Shown here in pieces: positions 1 to 8,261 of a DNA stretch of 36,441 bases. How positions within the stretch are numbered: position 1 is the first letter of the stretch; the number at the start of each line of letters is the position of its first letter. Source of the stretch: Caulochytrium protostelioides (Eukaryota > Chytridiomycota > Caulochytriomycetes > Caulochytriales > Caulochytriaceae); contig ML014296.1 of the NCBI GenBank assembly GCA_003615045.1, forward strand, positions 1 through 36,441, in the 5' to 3' direction. The notes under the pieces are model-generated. The model made no database searches. It was not told the DNA's origin and saw only the letters and a program-made list of their open reading frames with translations. Made by a program: the position numbers and the translations under genes.

Positions 1-11
1 AAACAAAAACA

Positions 12-127
12 GCATCCGTGGTTTAGTGGTAAAATTAACGCTTGCCATAGACATCCTGACCGCCTTCCCGGCTTCAGGGTCGTACAGCAACATGTGTTAG
101 CCCCGGGTTCGATTCCCGGCGGATGCA
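12..127 (+). tRNA. tRNA-Gly (anticodon GCC) with an intron of about 45 nt
   Basis: The first seven bases gcatccg pair perfectly with cggatgc at 120-126, followed by discriminator A at 127. The D arm (gttt/aaat) and the T arm (ccggg, ttcgatt, cccgg; B box at about 106-116) are canonical. The anticodon stem aacgc (37-41) pairs with gtgtt (94-98) with one G-U pair. The loop reads t-t-g-c-c-a, giving anticodon GCC at 44-46. The mature body is interrupted after base 37 of the tRNA by an insertion at about 48-92, the standard position for eukaryotic nuclear tRNA introns. Four T residues at 129-132 would serve as the RNA polymerase III terminator. Edges of the intron may be off by one base. A decayed mobile-element relic starts almost directly downstream. 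Confidence 0.93.
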
Positions 128-149
128 GTTTTGCGTTACCCACCTTTTT

Positions 150-695
150 AGAGAACCGTGCACTCATTGCTTCCGCATCGTCCTGGTCGGTGAGTTCCGC
201 ACGGCCCAGATGCATGTCGAGACGAATGACCTCCTGACTAAGGTGAAAACCCGGAACCCGAAGAAGGTGCCGATATCTCACGCTTCCCAGGCGGGAGCCA
301 ATCCGCGCCGACGGCCGTCAACCCGATCCGCAACATCAGGGTGTATGCTCAGATGATTGTAGTCCTCAAATCCGGGCAACGCTGGCGCCAGGGGACGGTA
401 CGAGGCTTGCTGTGGAACATAGGCACCCACGGCGAGTTTGTGAACCGCGGCCTTAATGCCACGTTGAACATCCGACGCTGCCTGGACTTACCCGTCAGAC
501 AAATAGCGCTGTGCCGTAACTCCGAGCAAGACCCGTTGCGGCTCGAAGTCGGCAAGCTCATCCGACAACAAGCTTACTGCGCTACTGCCGTTGTGGGGAA
601 ACCCTGGGGGGCATCATGGAGGGGGTGGTGTACATCGTGAGATGCCAGGATGGGCCTATATACACGAGAAGCTCGCTGTATTCATTTTAATCTTC
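150..695 (+). pseudogene. Fanzor/TnpB-like nuclease relic A (C-terminal part plus tail)
   Basis: This is a broken copy of a TnpB-like RNA-guided nuclease of the eukaryotic Fanzor type. One frame (about 180-310) reads V-G-E-F-R-T-A-Q-M-H and then K-V-K-T-R-N-P-K-K-V-P. It resembles the D-E-F-R-T-S-x-x-C segment that precedes the zinc ribbon in Fanzor proteins, with D changed to G and the cysteine lost. The reading then shifts frame at about 310-345 and continues as VVLKSGQRWRQGTVRGLLW, then VNRGLNATLNIRRCL. The conserved N-R-D-x-N-A-A-x-N-I block (RuvC-III aspartate) has become N-R-G, so a catalytic residue is missing. The usual stop TAA after G-K-L-I-R-Q is CAA here, so the frame runs on to 640. 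A tail shared with copies C and D extends to about 693. No N-terminal half is visible. The relic fills the gap between tRNA-Gly and the ALKBH1-like stop codon. Confidence 0.68.
551..693 (+). repeat. Fanzor-relic 3' tail, copy A
   Basis: The segment starts at the codons for G-K-L-I-R-Q and continues through the block gtggggaaaccctgggggg, catcatggaggg and gatgggcctatata to a ctgtattcattttaat end. It matches the tails of copies C and D closely by eye. In TnpB and Fanzor elements the RNA scaffold overlaps the end of the gene and the element end, so this may be a scaffold or right-end relic. That is inference from position and conservation only. Confidence 0.55.
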
Positions 696-716
696 ATCGT
701 GCTCGCTGGGGTCAGT

Positions 717-2009
717 TCACTGGAATTGTCGCACATTTATATTGATCCGGTGCGATTGTAGGTACTTCTGCATCGACTGGCTGCACGCCGAAAAGCAGGA
801 CGCGATCGTTCCAGGCTGGGTAAAGGGGAGCATGTGCAGGTCGGTTCCTTGCTCAATTTGCTTGGAAATCTGGCGCCCCTGCGCCGCAAAAGCGCGTTTG
901 ATCTGCCGTGGAGCGTGTTCAGGCACGGACTCGCGCGCCATTATACGAGGCACCCCGTGGAAGTTGAGTCGTGCGGGCCCGCCGAAGAGGATAATGTCGC
1001 CTGACCGGACCCGAAAGGCAGTCGGGGTGTCCTCTCGCGTCTGGCTTCCCATGAGAAAAACAGCATCTTGTCCAAGACTTAGCGAAACCAGAGGCGCTGT
1101 CATGTTGACTTCGCTGCGGTCCTGGTGCGCCATGAGCGCGTCGTGTGGTCCATAAAAGTTGATGATACCGCCCTGCGGTCGCCATTGGTCGGCCGTATAG
1201 TGTGTCAGATGGGCCGTGGCGCCGACGATGGCGCGCGTCAAGGCGACCAGCAACGGCGGTATAGGGGCGACACGGTCGGTGTAATACTCTTGGCGAGACC
1301 AGTTGTACTGCATCCCAAGGCTTGACCACCGCATACGGTCCATGAGTTCGGAGCAAGAGAGGGCGGTCAGATCCACGCTGCTCGGCGATGGCGAGGCTTC
1401 ATAGCCCGCGGCTACGCTGAGTGATCCATCTTTGATGGGTTGAGATCGCGACGATGGCGCGCTAGGCGGGAAGTCGGTTTTTAGAGGAATGATCTGGTCA
1501 GGCTGGGCCTGAGCAGCGTTCCAGATACCGTGGTCCGGCACGTCCCAGTGCGCATGCAAATTGGAGACATTAGGTTCCCGCGACCATTGCTCAAGGGATG
1601 CCGCCGCCAGATAGCACTGTGCCGAAGGGGTCAACGCGTTGGGAATGATAATGAGGCCAGGGACTGTGGCGACCGTGTACGCGACGACGTCCGGTACCAT
1701 CCAGTCGTCAATGCGGATGTCCACCGCAGCGTGTACAGGATCGCCCTGCTCGTCGGGGCGGAGCAGAGTGCCTAGTGTGGCGTCGGAGGCCGCAGACCAT
1801 CGGATGGCACCGGCCGATCGCAGGTGCTGGCTGTGTGGGTTGTCGTGGCACTCGAGGCGGTCGACCAGCGAGGCCGGAAGGGGCCCTCGCCGTTTGTATT
1901 CTCGCTCGATGGCCCGGAAGGCGGTCGTATTGGCTTGACGCGGGGCGGCTTCTGAGCATGCTGCCCCGGTGCGGCACGCAGTGGTCGGAGTTGCCGAGCA
2001 CGCGGACAT
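717..2009 (-). CDS. ALKBH1: AlkB homologue 1-like Fe(II)/2-oxoglutarate dioxygenase
   Basis: The product is an AlkB-family oxygenase closest to eukaryotic ALKBH1, which demethylates methylated bases in nucleic acids (tRNA and DNA substrates are described for the family). The chosen ATG at 2009 gives 430 residues; the open frame continues upstream to 2117 but only from a TTG. The N-terminal T-A-F-R-A-I-E-R-E-Y-K-R-R segment is typical of ALKBH1. The core shows R-W-S-S-L-G-M-Q-Y-N-W and then N-F-Y-G-P-H-D-A-L-M-A-H-Q-D-R-S-E. Iron ligands are His295 and Asp297 (H-Q-D) and His351 (F-H-G-V-P-R-I). The 2-oxoglutarate-binding arginines lie in R-I-N-I-N-V-R-Q (421 and 427), two residues before the C-terminus. 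All key residues are present, so the enzyme should be active. The protein is somewhat longer than the animal homologue, with a Ser/Pro-rich insert around residues 180-205. The stop lies about 25 bp from the tail of Fanzor relic A, so the mRNA 3' end probably runs into the relic. Confidence 0.9.
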   Translation of the reverse strand: MSACSATPTTACRTGAACSEAAPRQANTTAFRAIEREYKRRGPLPASLVDRLECHDNPHSQHLRSAGAIRWSAASDATLGTLLRPDEQGDPVHAAVDIRIDDWMVPDVVAYTVATVPGLIIIPNALTPSAQCYLAAASLEQWSREPNVSNLHAHWDVPDHGIWNAAQAQPDQIIPLKTDFPPSAPSSRSQPIKDGSLSVAAGYEASPSPSSVDLTALSCSELMDRMRWSSLGMQYNWSRQEYYTDRVAPIPPLLVALTRAIVGATAHLTHYTADQWRPQGGIINFYGPHDALMAHQDRSEVNMTAPLVSLSLGQDAVFLMGSQTREDTPTAFRVRSGDIILFGGPARLNFHGVPRIMARESVPEHAPRQIKRAFAAQGRQISKQIEQGTDLHMLPFTQPGTIASCFSACSQSMQKYLQSHRININVRQFQ

Positions 2010-2117
2010 TGTGCGAGGAGCAGGCGATGGCGATGGCACCAGCAGCGACCTGCAGCAGCGCGTCAGAACAAGCGTTGCGCTAGCGCCGCATCGAGCGGGA
2101 GGATACTTTGCCAGCAA

Positions 2118-3060
2118 GAAGGCTGCATCTTCTCGCCTTCACCCTTCCTGCGGGTAGAGACGCCTTTTCCAGTCACTGAAAAACGGTTTTGGGCTCCCAT
2201 TAAACTGCAGTCGCCTTATCCAGACGACGAAGGCCGATCTGGCCTATCATGCCGTAGGGAAGGTTGTGGGAGGCCTGCATCACACATGGGCGATCACTAT
2301 GACGCTGCACGGCGCGGCACGGCGTGGCGGGACGAGCCAGTGACCGCCCTCGAGCACACGGGCGGGCCCAGCCTCCGCCGCCGCACCTGGGGGCGGCAGG
2401 AGCAGCTAAGCGGCCGACGGCGCAGCGGCTTGGTCGGGGGCTTGCATGTCGGATGGCGCGTCGGATGGCGTAGCTTATCGGCAACCCTTCGGCGTTACAG
2501 GAGGGGTGCCGACGGAGATGCCCCAGCGGGCGCACAGAGCGTGGGCGCCATCGAGGAGGGCGTCGCCTGAAATCGCGGTGATCCATGCCTCGTACCAAAT
2601 TCATGCCTAGATTTCGGATAGGAGATTGCGTTCCAATCGGGATTCACATGACAGCACCAGGACTGGCGGTTGGGCACCGGTCCCGTCCACCCGTTCCATG
2701 CATCCAGGACATTAACTCATCAGATGGCGCATCAAGAAAGGAGTTACACTGCTGGAGAACCTGCAAAGTCCCGCATCTATCGAAGGGGTTTAATGCGCCA
2801 GGAACTAGGGCGTTTTGGTATTCTCGACGAGGGCCGTTGTAGAATGCGCCGCGCGTTCACCATTGTGATGGGTGCTCCAAAGTCCATTTTTCGCTTCAAC
2901 GCTCGTCAGGGCCATGCCCGAAGCCATGTTTGGAGAGAAGTGATCGCCCTGCTGCTGGTGCCGCCCCGCTTTGGCCCCCGGACCCTTGATTTCAACGGCA
3001 TTAGCGAGCTTTGGCTAATTACCAGTGTCCTCGTGCGCAAGGAGGTCGTCATCCTCCTCG
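2118..3060. other. Intergenic, no supported gene
   Basis: Open frames on both strands here look like unconstrained GC-rich DNA. On the minus strand a few pieces read protein-like (about 2500-2600 and 2200-2270, with a tgtgatgcag acceptor-like site between them), but no start codon or family could be found. This stretch should contain the 5' region of the ALKBH1-like gene. Confidence 0.5.
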
Positions 3061-3064
3061 TCGC

Positions 3065-3144
3065 AGTCGGTATATTGAATCAAGGCGCACACCATGCCCT
3101 CCGTGGGGGACCCAGGGATCCCCCGAGGCAGACGCCCATTCGGT
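3065..3144 (-). repeat. Fanzor-relic 3' tail, copy B (diverged)
   Basis: Downstream of the G-K-V-I-R-H stop on the minus strand, the sequence keeps the order t-g-c-c, a G run, c-c-c-t-g-g-g, g-g-a-g-g-g-c-a-t-g-g and then an AT-rich a-a-t-a-t-a-c-c, parallel to tails A, C and D. The piece gggggatccctgggtccccc is a near-perfect inverted repeat (about 9 bp each arm allowing one G-U pair). Confidence 0.45.
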
Positions 3145-3771
3145 TCAGTGTCGAATGACTTTGCCGACCACGGACCGCCGGGGCGCTTGCCCGAGATTGC
3201 GGCACAGCGCTTCTGGTCTGTCCGGTAAGGCCAGACAGCGTCGGATGTTCAACGCGGCATTGAGATCGCGGTTCACCCACTTGCTGTGGGTGGCATCATT
3301 GCCGTTGGTAGCTCTATACCACAGCAGCCCTCGGACCACGGTTCCCTGACGCCGGTGTTGACCGGGTTTCAGGACCACATTGATCCGGGCGTACACCCGG
3401 GTCTCCCAGAACGGGGTGGCCGGCGTCGGCGCGGCCGGGGAAGCGCCTGCGCGCGTCCTGCGGGGCGGGTTGACCCGCGTCGGCGCCGTCTCCCGGGGGT
3501 GCCCGGTCTGATCAGGGCTGACGAGCAAGGGGTTCGTAGCCCCGGGGGTCGCCGTGACAATCGGCACGACGTCGGCCACCTTCTTCTTGCGCACAAAGTG
3601 GACGCACATGCTCGTTCCGTCGCTGTCGACGGTTCCGGTGAACGTGTGATCCATACCTTCCAGCTGGCCGCATGCCAGGGAGGTCGCCCACCGCTCTGGC
3701 GGGGTCATGGCCTGGAGGGTCTTGAGGTTGCAGGTCACCCGCTTGAGCTCCGTCAACAGACCATGGAGCAC
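3065..3771 (-). pseudogene. Fanzor/TnpB-like nuclease relic B (internally deleted)
   Basis: A 208-codon open frame (3145-3771) joins two ends of a Fanzor-type protein. The first part contains FTGTVDSDGTSMCVHFVRKK, which resembles the T-D-G-x-S-x-S-V segment just before RuvC-I in Fanzor proteins. A Pro/Thr-rich stretch follows, and then the C-terminal block RINVVLKPGQ, GTVVRGLLW, WVNRDLNAALNIRRCL and G-K-V-I-R-H-stop. The N-R-D aspartate is kept, but RuvC-I, the D-E-F-R-T-S segment and most of the zinc ribbon are gone, so no active nuclease is expected. The frame opens on GTG; the first in-frame ATG is at 3708. Beyond the stop (3145-3147), positions 3144-3065 hold a diverged form of the tail seen in A, C and D. 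A TATA-like box lies about 130 bp upstream of the open frame. It could be a decayed copy or an internally deleted derivative. Confidence 0.68.
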
Positions 3772-4640
3772 GCAGGTGTCAATCGTGATAAAGTAAACGC
3801 AGTTATTATATTATTCCATGATGTATGCGTGTGCTATCACGGGAGAGTCTGCATCACGAGAGAACGTCCACTGGGGGGTCTGCATGGAAATGGTCCCCTA
3901 TTTATACTTTACAGATCGAGGAGAGCACTAAAGCGGAGGAATAAGCTTTTTTTTTTGCCGCATCCACGTCATTCCCCGCTGGGCATCAGAGGGTCTGCGT
4001 GATCCCGTCGGGCACTGCCCGTGGAGGCCACGTCGCCAGACGTCAAGGTGGCGCGATGCTCAGCGGACGATCGCCCCGACGCTGGACGTCAGCGGGTCGA
4101 CGTGATCTCGCCGTCGAAAAGAACCGGGCGACGCGGCCGTATAGGCGAACCTGCCGTTGGGCGTCGCCGGGTCAGCACTGGGGCAGCGCAGCCTGCCCAA
4201 AGCTTTCTGAGTGGCCGCAGAGCAGGCGCGCAGGGCTCACCGCTCGAGGTCCCAGACGGTGGGTCCGGCCGGCAACGTGTTGCGTGAGGGGGCCATTGCT
4301 TCCATAACCCGAATGGCGGCCCCCTGGACCCGGAAACAGCATGCGTCCAGCTCCGTGGAGCCCATTGGGGAGGGCGTCGAAATGATCGATCACCTCGCGG
4401 ACGCCCGCCTGCAGCATTTCTCCTCGCGCTCTTCTGCGGCCGTCGCCCTCCAGCTGCCCGCCAGCACGGTCGCTCGCGCCAGGCGACCATGCGGCCGCTT
4501 CCTGTAGCAAAGTCCAAGTCCTTCGTATTGCGGTAGGCGGCCTAGGAGGTCGTGGGCGCCTTGGAAACCGTGGGCGCCGCGGGGCCGCATAAAGATGTTG
4601 GTGAAATCTTTATGGCCCTGGAGGGGTCCAAAAGCCAGGT
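3772..4640. other. Intergenic between relics B and C, no supported gene
   Basis: The stretch contains an AT-richer part (3780-3960) upstream of relic B. A block at about 3870-3910 on the plus strand resembles the relic tail (c-c-a-c-t-g-g-g-g-g-g-t-c-t-g-c-a-t-g-g-a). It is followed by GC-rich DNA with overlapping frames on both strands that match no family I recognise. Confidence 0.4.
3898..3906 (-). promoter_or_regulatory. TATA box candidate upstream of relic B
   Basis: On the minus strand the sequence reads tataaatag within g-t-a-t-a-a-a-t-a-g-g-g-g, about 130 bp upstream of the open frame of relic B. The spacing and match to a TATA box are good, but no start site is known. The same bases on the plus strand also resemble a Fanzor-relic tail end, so the assignment is uncertain. 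Confidence 0.35.
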
Positions 4641-5090
4641 CGCCAGCTGGAAGTTGACCCGAAAGCAGCGCGTCCCGGGTGGACGCCTCCCGACCACGCT
4701 GACGACAGTCAACCCGGTCCGCCGGACCATGGGGTATGCCAAGACAAAGGTAGTCCTGAAACTAGGACAACGCCGGCGGAAGGGGATCGCGGTCTGAGGT
4801 GTGCTCTGCTGTGAGGCCGCCAACGGCAGATTTGTGAACCGCGTCTTCCTCCATGCCGCATCCATCACTGCCTCGCCGCACGGGTCAGACCGAGGGCGTC
4901 GTGCCACCTCCCCAGGCCAGCCCCCCTTCAGCCCGTGGCCGGCAAGCTCATCCGGCAATAAACTTCATGCGCTACTGCCGCCGTGGGGAACCCCTGGGGG
5001 GCCTCATGGAGGGGAGGGTGCTCGTGTTAGGCGAGGAGGGGTCTATCTATGAGCATACGTTGTCACGTCTGTTCATTAACAATGATCCAA
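4640..5090 (+). pseudogene. Fanzor/TnpB-like nuclease relic C (scrambled C-terminus plus intact tail)
   Basis: The sequence aligns by eye with relic A. It reads T-V-N-P-V-R-R, K-V-V-L-K-L-G-Q-R-R-R-K-G up to a TGA stop at about 4795, then resumes as F-V-N-R around 4830 where the others have VNRDLNAALNI. After that the frame is lost. The coding part is therefore ruined by stops and indels. The last codons G-K-L-I-R-Q and the stop TAA (4959-4961) are recognisable in the third frame, followed by the shared tail to about 5088. No N-terminal half is visible between relics B and C. The contrast between a decayed gene and a well-kept tail is the notable feature. Confidence 0.6.
4931..5088 (+). repeat. 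Fanzor-relic 3' tail, copy C
   Basis: From gcccgtggcc at 4931, about 107 positions match the tail of copy D with a single difference seen (a versus g in gct-a/g-ctgcc). After that the copies diverge (gaggagg versus gaggatg), followed by a weak match gttcattaacaatgat at the end. The tail contains the normal stop codon TAA, the block gtggggaacccctgggggg and cctcatggagggg. Confidence 0.65.
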
Positions 5091-6640
5091 GGCGGAGGTC
5101 GAGCGCGGGATGCGGTCCCTTATCGCCCGTCGTTGCCTTCCGCCGACGTCAGGGACGTGGCGCAGAGCGGCCCTGAGGACCCGGGTGATCCGCCGTTCGC
5201 TGCCCTGATGGCCTGCCCTCCTCCTCCTCCCTTCGGCCTGACCGACCCGTCAGGGCGGCATGAACAGGCGAGGGCCGGGGCAGACGACGGCCACGCGCCT
5301 GCCCTCTCCGCGGCCTCCACAGCCAGTGCCACGCGCCGAGGTCCCATGGATGGCGGGATGCAGGGATGGATGCGACGCGCCATCCCCCATCTACGCCGCT
5401 CGCTCGCGCGAGCCGCGCCTGGTCCCTGAGGATGGCGCCGCCTCTGCGCTTGAAGGACGCGGCGACGAGAGGCGTTCCCTCAAGGCACGCGCCGAGACCG
5501 CTCCTCTCACGCCCCGCGAAAGGTCCTCTCTTGCTGCGGCGCTTACACTCACCTCCCGCAACGCGGGCCCATCCCTCCTCTCCCCTCGTGTCCTGCACGG
5601 TCCGATCAGAAACCCGCCAAGGGGTGGCGATGCACATGCCGCTGCACGCGCTGGGCCCCAGGGGACCAGGCGGCGCGGTGGGGCGGGGGGGAGAGGCCTC
5701 CGCGATAGGCGGAACCTCCCCAACGGCGTCCGGCATCCGGCGTTCCGCGCTGTAGCCGAGTGTTGACACAACGGCGGTGCCCCCGGCGGCGTGATGATGG
5801 CCGCCGCATGAGGGCTGTCGCATGGCGCAGCAACGTGGTGGAAGGGGTCAGCTGCGCGTTCGTTCGCCTCCCGCTCGCGGCTTTCCCTTCTCCCTGCTTC
5901 CTCGCCGCCGGTGGCCATCGGGCAGCCTCCGCACGACCCAGCGGCTATCGGATAACGCGCGCTGACGGCCCGTGGGGGCGGACCCTGGCCCAGTGGATTC
6001 ACCTGACCACCGAAAGTGGTCCCAGCGATCGACTTGAGCCGTGGCGCCCGCCGCTGCGCCCGATCCGCGGTCAGGAACACCGCATGCGCTGCATGAGGCG
6101 ATGGTGGCGACAGCCATGCTGTGGCCGATGGGCACCGTGGCCCAACGCCGCCGCTGCAAAGCGCCACAGGACGTCCCAGGGGCTCGTTGTCCGGACGCTG
6201 GAGGCGACGGCCCGTCCCTCCTTCGTTCCGTGTCAGCGGGGGCCATGCTGAGACCAGCGCGCGCGCAGCCAAACGAGGCGCCCTGCGTGCTGGAGGAGTC
6301 AGGAGGGCATGCAGGGCACGGCGTGGCCATCCACAGGGGCCGGAGGGCCTCTCGGGGTGCCGCCGGGCAGCCGCGTGAGGGGTCACCGCGGGACCTGACC
6401 GCCGTCGGGTCGTCGTCCTGACCATCGCCCCGCACCGCCTGATCCTAACGGCTTCGGCCGCGTCTAGCGCTCTTCAGGCGCGGCCCACTTGGCCCCCATA
6501 TGCCCTGCGTACGGGCCGATGAGGGCCGAAGGGCACCTCCCTCCGAGCGGACACGCGGTTGCCAAGGCGGGAATCAGGGGTCCAGTTCCGCGGCAACGGC
6601 AGGGAAAGCCGGGAAGTGCGGCCGCCGGGGTGACAGGACA
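5090..6640. other. Very GC-rich spacer, no supported gene
   Basis: Long overlapping open frames exist on both strands, as expected in DNA of this GC content. They are rich in Arg, Pro, Ala and Gly, with no recognisable domain, and opposing frames are equally long. I see no repeat, RNA or gene I can support. Confidence 0.5.
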
Positions 6641-6669
6641 GCGCCTTCTCGCTGGCTGGCTTTCCGCGA

Positions 6670-6955
6670 CCTCTTGCCACCCACGGCAAGTTCATGAACT
6701 GCGACCGCCATGCCGCGTTGAACATCTGACGCTGTCTGGCCTTACCGGTCAGACCGGAGGCGTTGTGCCGCACCCCCGGGCAAGCTCCTCCGCAGCCCGT
6801 GGCCGGCAAGCTCATCCGGCAATAAACTTCATGCGCTGCTGCCGCCGTGGGGAACCCCTGGGGGGCCTCATGGAGGGGAGGGTGCTCGTGTTAGGCGAGG
6901 ATGGGCCTATATATATGATCATAGGCTAGGCCACTGTCCATTAAAAATATGATGG
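6670..6955 (+). pseudogene. Fanzor/TnpB-like nuclease relic D (short C-terminus plus tail)
   Basis: Only the last part of the gene is left. From about 6685 it reads T-H-G-K-F-M-N-C-D-R-H-A-A-L-N-I, stop, R-C-L-A-L-P-V-R-P-E-A-L-C-R and then G-K-L-I-R-Q with the normal stop TAA (6823-6825). Compared with N-R-D-L-N-A-A-L-N-I-R-R-C-L in copy B, the block has several substitutions and an in-frame TGA where the other copies have CGA. Upstream of 6670 no similarity to the other copies is apparent, so it is 5'-truncated. The tail is almost identical to that of copy C. No product is expected. Confidence 0.62.
6794..6952 (+). repeat. Fanzor-relic 3' tail, copy D
   Basis: This tail is almost identical to copy C from gcccgtggcc through ttaggcgagga, and shares gatgggcctatata with copy A. 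It ends with an AT-rich part c-t-g-t-c-c-a-t-t-a-a-a-a-a-t. It is the best representative of the family tail because it combines features of both A and C. Confidence 0.65.
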
Positions 6956-8261
6956 TGAGGATGATCGTGCGGACGACAATCATACGGATGAGCATCCTGA
7001 CTCACCCATCCCGTCCGTGCCTCGGGTGAGTTGCGAATGCCGAGAACGGATGTCACTGAGTCGCTGCATCGGCCGTGAGCTGCGTTTCCAGTCGCGCGGC
7101 CTCAGCGCTCATGCATGTACGAACCGCTCAGCCAAGCCGCCGCGACCCTCGCAGCCATGCGCCATTCGCGGCCTCCCCTTTCATCACGGCCCCTGTGCTT
7201 CACTTGGACCAACCCCTGGACTCAGCCCCCGTGTCAAGCATGCGTGACATGATGTGTCGAGACGCGCTTCTTGCAATGTATTAAGCGCTGCGACGGCTGT
7301 CGTTGCCGCCGCCGCACTCGGGCGGCAGGGGATGCCTTGGGGCCGATGGGTTGACCTGGCCACCCCGTGTACTGATGCATCGGACATCGGACATCGGGCA
7401 TCGAGCCTCGGGCATTGGCGTGGGCCGCAAAACGCCAACGCAAGCGCAAAAGCAGGGGGCAGCAGTGGCCATCTGTCTCAATGAGACGGGCGCCTCACGA
7501 CCACTGCCGATGCAACGACGACGATGAGGCGATGGTCGCTGAGGCGCCTGCGGAGACCATGCGGAGGGACGAGCGCCCAGCACCACCACAAAGACCAATG
7601 TCGAGGGTCTCATCGTCCTCCCCGCGCCGCCCCCACCACCACACACACGTCGACATGCGCAAAGGTGCGCACGCGCAGAACTCACCTGAGGGGCCTCGTC
7701 CCGTCCGCCAAGGCCTGCCAGGCTCTGAGCATACACGCGCGCGACCCATAGAGGCTGCGATGGCGCAAGGCGGCGAAGGCGATCCTGATGCATGCAGGCA
7801 CCCGTGTCGAAGGCGCCGAGGTGGAGGGAAAGGCGGAGGAAAGCGCGCCAGGGGGAGTCCAAGCCGATGCCCCGGCAGATGCCCAGGGAGCTCAGCGCCG
7901 AGCAGCGCGAGCGGGTCTTCGCCGCGGGTCGCCCCCGTCTCGCGCCCACGCGCCCCTCCGCCTGGCGGGTGGTGGTCTGCGATATCCATGACGCCAAGCC
8001 ATGATGAAGCGCGCCGAGCCGTGTCACGCTGCGCCGCGCCGCGCTGTGCGGTCCCCTTCCTCTTGGCCCACCTCGCGTCGCTCGCCGTGCCTCAGCATCC
8101 CCTTCGGATGCGGGCCCCGAGGGCGTCCCGTCGTGGTCGGGACCGAGCGCCAAAATCGTTTGATGCCGCCCGCAGCAGAGGGGTCGAGGGCTCAGCACAC
8201 GGCGAAGCGCCGGAGCGGTGTGTCGCCGAGTGCCGTCGATGGTCATCCGGCGGCATCCTCG

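Follow-up and report, generated by a model that had tools for sequence, protein, structure and literature searches.

The 36,441-nt stretch of Caulochytrium protostelioides DNA analyzed here (the window; contig C186 of an assembly of 20.9 Mb in 337 contigs) carries four decayed copies of a Fanzor-like gene (A to D; Table 1), each ending in a recognizable non-coding tail, and raises the question of what this tail is and whether it has outlived the gene that it follows. The initial annotation had proposed that it does and that it could be a guide RNA scaffold or the end of a mobile element. Our best explanation, which we consider probable if not strongly so, is that the tail marks the fixed 3′ terminus of Fanzor1-derived mobile elements whose copies are dispersed in the genome and have scattered 5′ starts, that it likely carried a guide RNA scaffold, and that the close match between the tails of C and D is likely a gene conversion tract.

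A Pfam scan of five open reading frames of the window found topoisomerase I, CBF/Mak21, NDT80/PhoG, and 2OG-Fe(II) oxygenase among them, and nothing over cut-off in copy B. All four tails, including those of A and B that had been called recognizable, are matched by a covariance model with E ≤ 4.9e-19 each (C at 4950–5049, D at 6814–6913, the others as in Table 1), though the alignment behind this model (A1) contains these same four tails. The in-frame stop is lost in A and present in B, C, and D, and the deletion of copy B (profile 943 to 1739) is also found in locus L041.

Table 1. Features of the window around the four Fanzor-derived copies (profile positions refer to the 2,201-position family profile).
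Feature	Position	Strand	Details
tRNA gene with intron-like insert of ~47 nt	12..127	+	Rfam RF00005, 48.8 bits
Copy A, 5′-truncated, Fanzor-derived	157..693	+	profile 1537-1716 + 1795-2186; tail 560-662, end near 693
Copy B, internal deletion	3065..3801	-	profile 627-943 abutting 1739-2168; tail 3156-3061
Copy C	4582..5088	+	profile 1076-1154 + 1779-2186; stop 4959-4961; tail to about 5088
Terminal hairpin of copy C	near 5048-5076	+	
Tract of C nearly identical to that of D, by likely gene conversion	4929..5037	+	1 mismatch/109
Copy D, short	6676..6952	+	profile 1935-2188; stop 6823-6825; A-run ends tail near 6942
Near-identity tract of D	6793..6901	+	pair of C tract

As first noticed, the tails of C and D are nearly identical and their upstream coding parts are not: the sole difference between the two tracts lies at position 4974, while the aligned coding parts share 53.5% identity and the 50 bases 3′ of the tract hold 29 mismatches when compared without gaps. 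The match had thus been described correctly, except that the coordinate given for D has to be moved by one base to the right. At the mean tail divergence of the family, no more than one mismatch in 109 positions is expected by chance with a probability of 6e-15, and the pair shows the largest tail-minus-coding difference (0.455) among 3,651 pairs of copies. Since a short near-identical tract in neighbors (here 1.86 kb apart) with divergent sequence on either side is what conversion leaves, the near-identity likely reflects local gene conversion, one of the options originally offered, and not a specially conserved RNA gene, as judged from this one genome.

Across the family, the tail is not better conserved than the gene. 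A total of 87 tails from 77 stretches (290 kb) were aligned, with 7 of 94 tail matches below 40 bits excluded beforehand. Over pairs of copies, mean identity is 0.715 for the tail and 0.729 for the adjoining coding part, with the tail being higher in 38.9% of the 3,651 pairs (an internal pair of C16_1919 with tail identity 1.000, apparently one stretch aligned twice, was ignored). For the 1,274 pairs from stretches with a protein match, the respective values are 0.734 and 0.785. In steps of 20 columns, identity ranges from 0.68 to 0.85 over the last 180 coding columns and from 0.60 to 0.77 in the 100 columns beginning at the stop, beyond which it drops to 0.43 and then, roughly 110 nt after the stop codon, to about 0.3, indicating that the tail ends where the element ends. 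Divergence is nearly equal across the three codon positions (0.658, 0.666, and 0.675 in one block, 0.761, 0.777, and 0.723 in the next, and 0.705, 0.751, and 0.769 at the end). Gene and tail thus decay alike, with little sign of constraint on either, and the observation of a tail better conserved than its gene holds for the pair of C and D and not for the family.

The identification of the tail as the end of a mobile element has, by contrast, held up well, given a common 3′ end about 110 nt past the stop in dispersed copies. A 22-base tail pattern with up to three mismatches matches the genome 217 times (112 and 105 by strand) and its reversed control once, which excludes that the tails are confined to one segmental duplication. 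The best 40 of 145 candidates for the tail query were scored, all with E ≤ 3.4e-15, as were the best 40 of 467 candidates for a longer query, and the protein of copy B gave at least 155 matches, the best 150 of 874 candidates being scored. No intact gene was seen among loci L001 to L068, because the longest stop-to-stop frame over a match there spans 409 codons and is partly out of frame. Fanzor-like matches on three other contigs (C313:2705-3034, C47:4022-4279, and C62:6040-6213) come with open frames of 1024, 1426, and 761 codons and are possibly pieces taken into other genes.

Measured against a profile of 2,201 positions built from 23 copies, 86 copies, including some weak matches (C99-, C22_128680+, C279+, and C48+), reach the 3′ end of the profile, and there their ends coincide. 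Their 5′ starts are scattered over 2.1 kb, from position 3 to position 2101, with lengths from 92 to 2,177 and a median of about 627. Most 5′ flanks have no match elsewhere in the set, and the few pairs that share flanking sequence past the profile (B/L041 and C183/C64) show that some starts are under-extended; in C299, homology extends beyond the start of the profile by at least 0.5 kb. Among the copies with internal deletions are B, L041, C53, C18, C97, C64, C44, and C307; ~500 to 1,050 profile positions are lost, with the remaining segments abutting or nearly so. In the first seven of these, the deletions are precise, cover some 500 to 900 positions, and differ in site between copies. Copies that consist of the tail only, for which a search had been suggested, number at most 3 of 86, all of them weak matches.

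An ordinary DNA transposon with two ends could give a similar picture if the 5′ ends went missing through decay and sampling, and our sample is indeed 3′-biased because the queries were mostly C-terminal or tail sequences; internal deletions are, moreover, common and the copies old. This explanation nevertheless appears improbable to us, since the 3′ ends coincide while the starts spread along the profile, and a first look gave 790 candidates with the C-terminal 116 amino acids and 375 with a middle part of 262 amino acids, even though the latter is the longer query. The tail was also present in all four stretches fetched by a match on the N-terminal side (L041, L057, L062, and L063). By a hand count over incomplete lists, 12 of the 28 listed N-side matches of protein B are followed by a C-terminal or tail match that is also on the lists, which for this reason neither proves nor refutes intact 3′ ends. 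Terminal inverted repeats, which a two-ended element might be expected to carry, were not found: minus-strand matches to the tail away from known tails occur in 5 of 77 stretches, and three of these are only 20 to 22 nt long. The two longer ones (C22_116151 and C65_83861) were rejected as such repeats, as their distance from the point where the copy starts on the profile is 0.5 and 0.9 kb in the upstream direction and they may be fragments.

The fixed 3′ end with 5′ truncation, seen in this 3′-biased sample, is also what would be expected of RNA-primed, LINE-like retrocopies for which a reverse transcriptase acting in trans starts at the tail and often stops early. The 3′ ends themselves differ between subfamilies, with a terminal hairpin and an A-run in some and AAACTCAATATA- or AAATAAATAT-like sequence in others. 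Runs of at least five A are found at 22 of 86 3′ ends compared to 1 of 86 downstream and 3 of 86 upstream flanks, some copies lie downstream of tRNA genes as reported for the retrotransposon TRE3 (PMC5006619), and the genome holds 19 RVT_1 matches (15 over cut-off), known by their coordinates only. We still find retrocopying rather unlikely: in the 22 copies with A-runs, the next base is usually T, as though the end were encoded and not a poly-A tail, and target site duplications showed no excess over shuffled pairs either in the 86 copies or in these 22, albeit with low power at such divergence and leaving out copies that stop short of profile position 2150 or have too little flank. The sole RVT_1 match near a fetched copy (C183) sits 0.8 kb upstream of an already truncated copy and does not show a reverse transcriptase to be part of the element.

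That the family derives from Fanzor1 is well supported at the protein level. With a natural frame of 272 amino acids (L045) as query, 64 relatives were found (E ≤ 0.001), four of them from Haematococcus lacustris and most of them metagenomic proteins without a name, and a profile of 19 sequences (18 of these relatives and the query) matches three PDB molecules only, all of them Fanzor1 (E 8.7e-18, 2.7e-9, and 1e-7). The structural model of one relative (P0041; 468 amino acids, mean pLDDT 78.4, pTM 0.59) places Fanzor1 structures at ranks 1 to 7 in Foldseek with E from 9.5e-14 to 1.5e-8 and TM scores of about 0.4 to 0.5 (only 0.41 to 0.46 relative to the model). Fanzor proteins are described by a motif of the form D ... 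[TS][TS]xx ... RD with a C4 zinc finger between [TS][TS] and RD (Bao and Jurka 2013, PMC3627910), and the D, [TS][TS]xx, and RD elements are found as GNDPGRTN, DEFRTTQV, and NRDLNAALN in natural frames of several copies and also in relatives. The signatures DPG, an alternative Glu, and TDG given for Fanzor1 (Yoon 2023, PMC10711439) are likewise present, as DPGR, DEF, and TDG.

The C4 zinc finger, on the other hand, is missing, as the family reads DEFRTTQVHAETN and LLWYEATN in its place, and we therefore call the family Fanzor1-derived rather than assign it to Fanzor by that motif. The first CxxC is absent in 58 of 60 readable relatives and the second in 56 of 57; because the search was seeded with a zinc-finger-less sequence, these counts reveal a branch and not its share of all Fanzors. 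In relatives, the second pair reads WCxST or similar, and the first pair is kept only by P0062 and P0063. Pfam gave nothing over cut-off for three natural frames, and of eight relatives compared with PF07282, only P0062, which has kept its cysteines, passes. Two peptide patterns found no viral relatives. A limited literature search returned no description of a zinc-finger-less Fanzor branch, though one may exist; the branch is of interest for the question of whether its members still need RNA-guided cutting.

The tail extends from the stop codon as far as the right end of the element, where the guide RNA of a Fanzor (omega or reRNA) would lie, and published Fanzor1 guide RNAs are described at the same location relative to their gene (PMC10432273, PMC10711439). 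In several well-kept copies, a long hairpin predicted from the stop is followed by a terminal hairpin that is perfect in some subfamilies (L006, L008, and L004). Folding z-scores from the stop reach -2.8 for L047 (the long hairpin), -3.1 for L004, -4.2 for L008, and -2.3 for L058, with -3.5 for the terminal hairpin of L006; L053 scores +0.1, and in the window, the values are -2.6 for C, -1.3 for D, and about 0 for A and B. Over 85 copies, however, tails fold no better than the adjoining 100 coding nt (mean z -1.07 and -1.08), compared to -0.43 for the 100 nt downstream and -0.74 for the reverse strand. Rfam found no family over gathering score in the tails of the window and 80 loci. In window positions 1 to 7100, a search at up to E = 1 yielded nothing beyond the tRNA itself and one weak match opposite it on the other strand.

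Evidence for covariation is weak. RNAalifold on the whole alignment returned no pair, probably because a G-rich loop misaligns, and a 17-pair structure was drawn by hand, toward which the following pair counts therefore lean. With this structure, 79.9% of cells in 79 aligned tails are paired, with a covariation score of 0.181 compared to 0.147 for shuffles and at most 0.084 for slides. Two base pairs show compensatory changes, columns 40-96 (C-G 51, U-A 17, and U-G 5 of 77 rows with letters) and columns 43-93 (G-C 30, U-G 16, and C-G 9), and these take ranks 6 and 23 among 4,705 column pairs, while the remaining 15 pairs rank 557 or lower. On a tree of the coding part, retention is 0.400 for stem P2 and 0.323 for stem P1 and does not exceed that of canonical pairs picked at random (0.400). 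The suggestion of a guide RNA scaffold is thus made plausible by the position of the tail and the folds of the best copies, but not by stem retention or by any excess of folding over the coding end, and the structural covariation proposed as a check amounts to two base pairs. Based on position and best folds, the tail is likely the site where the guide RNA of the element was once made, and a structured RNA in a once-active lineage appears plausible.

Could the tail instead be a stand-alone RNA gene under selection after the death of the protein gene? The single difference between the C and D tails, the exchange of C-G for U-A at columns 40-96, and the loci of Spizellomyces that reportedly hold a guide RNA and no gene (PMC10432273) would fit, but with coding part and tail decaying alike over all pairs, stems breaking at the rate of random pairs, and coding sequence absent from hardly any copy, we consider this very unlikely. 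Alternatively, the hairpins may be a DNA end recognized by a transposase, with no guide RNA involved, as the perfect terminal hairpins of some subfamilies and the 3′ subterminal hairpins of Helitrons (PMC3627910) might suggest. This idea seems doubtful to us given that frequent G-U pairs (e.g., 32 of 78 rows at columns 29-121) suit RNA and that the reverse strand folds less well on average. No match to a Helitron protein (PF14214) was found in the genome, though the control likewise matched no genome.

Copies of the family are over-represented just downstream of tRNA genes on the same strand, a post hoc observation that is weaker when contig starts serve as control. Copy A begins 30 nt downstream of the tRNA gene of the window on the same strand; this tRNA matches RF00005 only with its 47-nt insert in the region of the anticodon arm and was not reported by ARAGORN with the bacterial code. 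Among 64 tRNAs (the best 63 of 234 candidates scored and that of the window), seven are followed within 1 kb by a copy on the same strand and none is preceded by one, compared to an expectation of 0.33, 0.71, or 1.21 for 213, 467, or 790 copies; a single opposite-strand copy lies within 2 kb of a tRNA. Besides the tRNA of the window, those concerned are at L003 447-519, L043 1-73, and L046 22-94 and, by coordinate, on C275, C294, and C114. Against contig starts, the list of copies extended by seven places gives an odds ratio of 3.2 (p 0.028), or of 4.9 (p 0.006) for the same strand, and the shorter list gives 4.9 (p 0.006) and 7.4 (p 0.0013), respectively. Almost half of the tRNAs (31 of 64) are found no more than 600 bases from the start of a contig and read inward without exception, so that their upstream sides are mostly unseen, and in some contigs (e.g., C24 and C260) each end has a tRNA. 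The assembly may be interrupted at these places by a repeat, or by an insertion hotspot, on the upstream side of tRNA genes. If the bias holds in a gap-free assembly, it would amount to an insertion preference, for which a limited literature search found no report for Fanzor, though one may exist.

Taken as the 3′ end of a mobile family, the tail would be the place from which copying proceeds, often stopping early, be it in a one-ended, rolling-circle-like, or RNA-primed mode. The stretch from the stop codon to the element end would have folded into a long hairpin, joined in some subfamilies by a terminal hairpin that a protein or the copying enzyme may have recognized, and the copies would later have decayed under little constraint. 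A bolder reading, to which we give little credence, is that members of a zinc-finger-less Fanzor1 branch copy themselves from their guide RNA end and insert immediately 3′ of tRNA genes with matching orientation, spreading in the manner of tRNA-targeting retrotransposons. The dictyostelid elements TRE3 and Skipper-2 are found downstream of tRNA genes, at distances of some tens of bp up to roughly a hundred (PMC5006619), but these are retrotransposons, whereas no reverse transcriptase was shown in the copies described here, most of which lie away from the listed tRNAs.

Parallels also come from Fanzor elements themselves. Spu-1 of Spizellomyces punctatus, with its protein SpuFz1, has a structured region between its stop codon and its end (Saito 2023, PMC10432273), to which the tail would correspond, and its protein is related to that of our family (profile E 2.7e-9). 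According to the same source, Spu-1 differs in that inverted repeats bound it on either side, its genes are intact, its protein has a C4 zinc finger, and its guide RNA is proven, and its 134 gene-less ghost loci stand against the very few tail-only copies here. For the Fanzor1 elements CRe-1/2/3 of Chlamydomonas reinhardtii, Bao and Jurka (2013, PMC3627910) report the C4 zinc-finger motif, ends of the Helitron2 type, and TSDs of 7 to 19 bp that follow T-rich sites, while in our family no such duplications and no Helitron protein were found and the cysteines are missing. In the form of their copies, these elements match our family, as they, too, combine a Fanzor1 gene with frequent 5′ truncation, internal deletions, and intact 3′ ends, for which one-ended rolling-circle copying was proposed (PMC3627910). 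Copies anchored at the 3′ end and truncated at the 5′ end thus occur in a lineage beyond CRe-1/2/3 and bear on the question of how Fanzor elements are copied.
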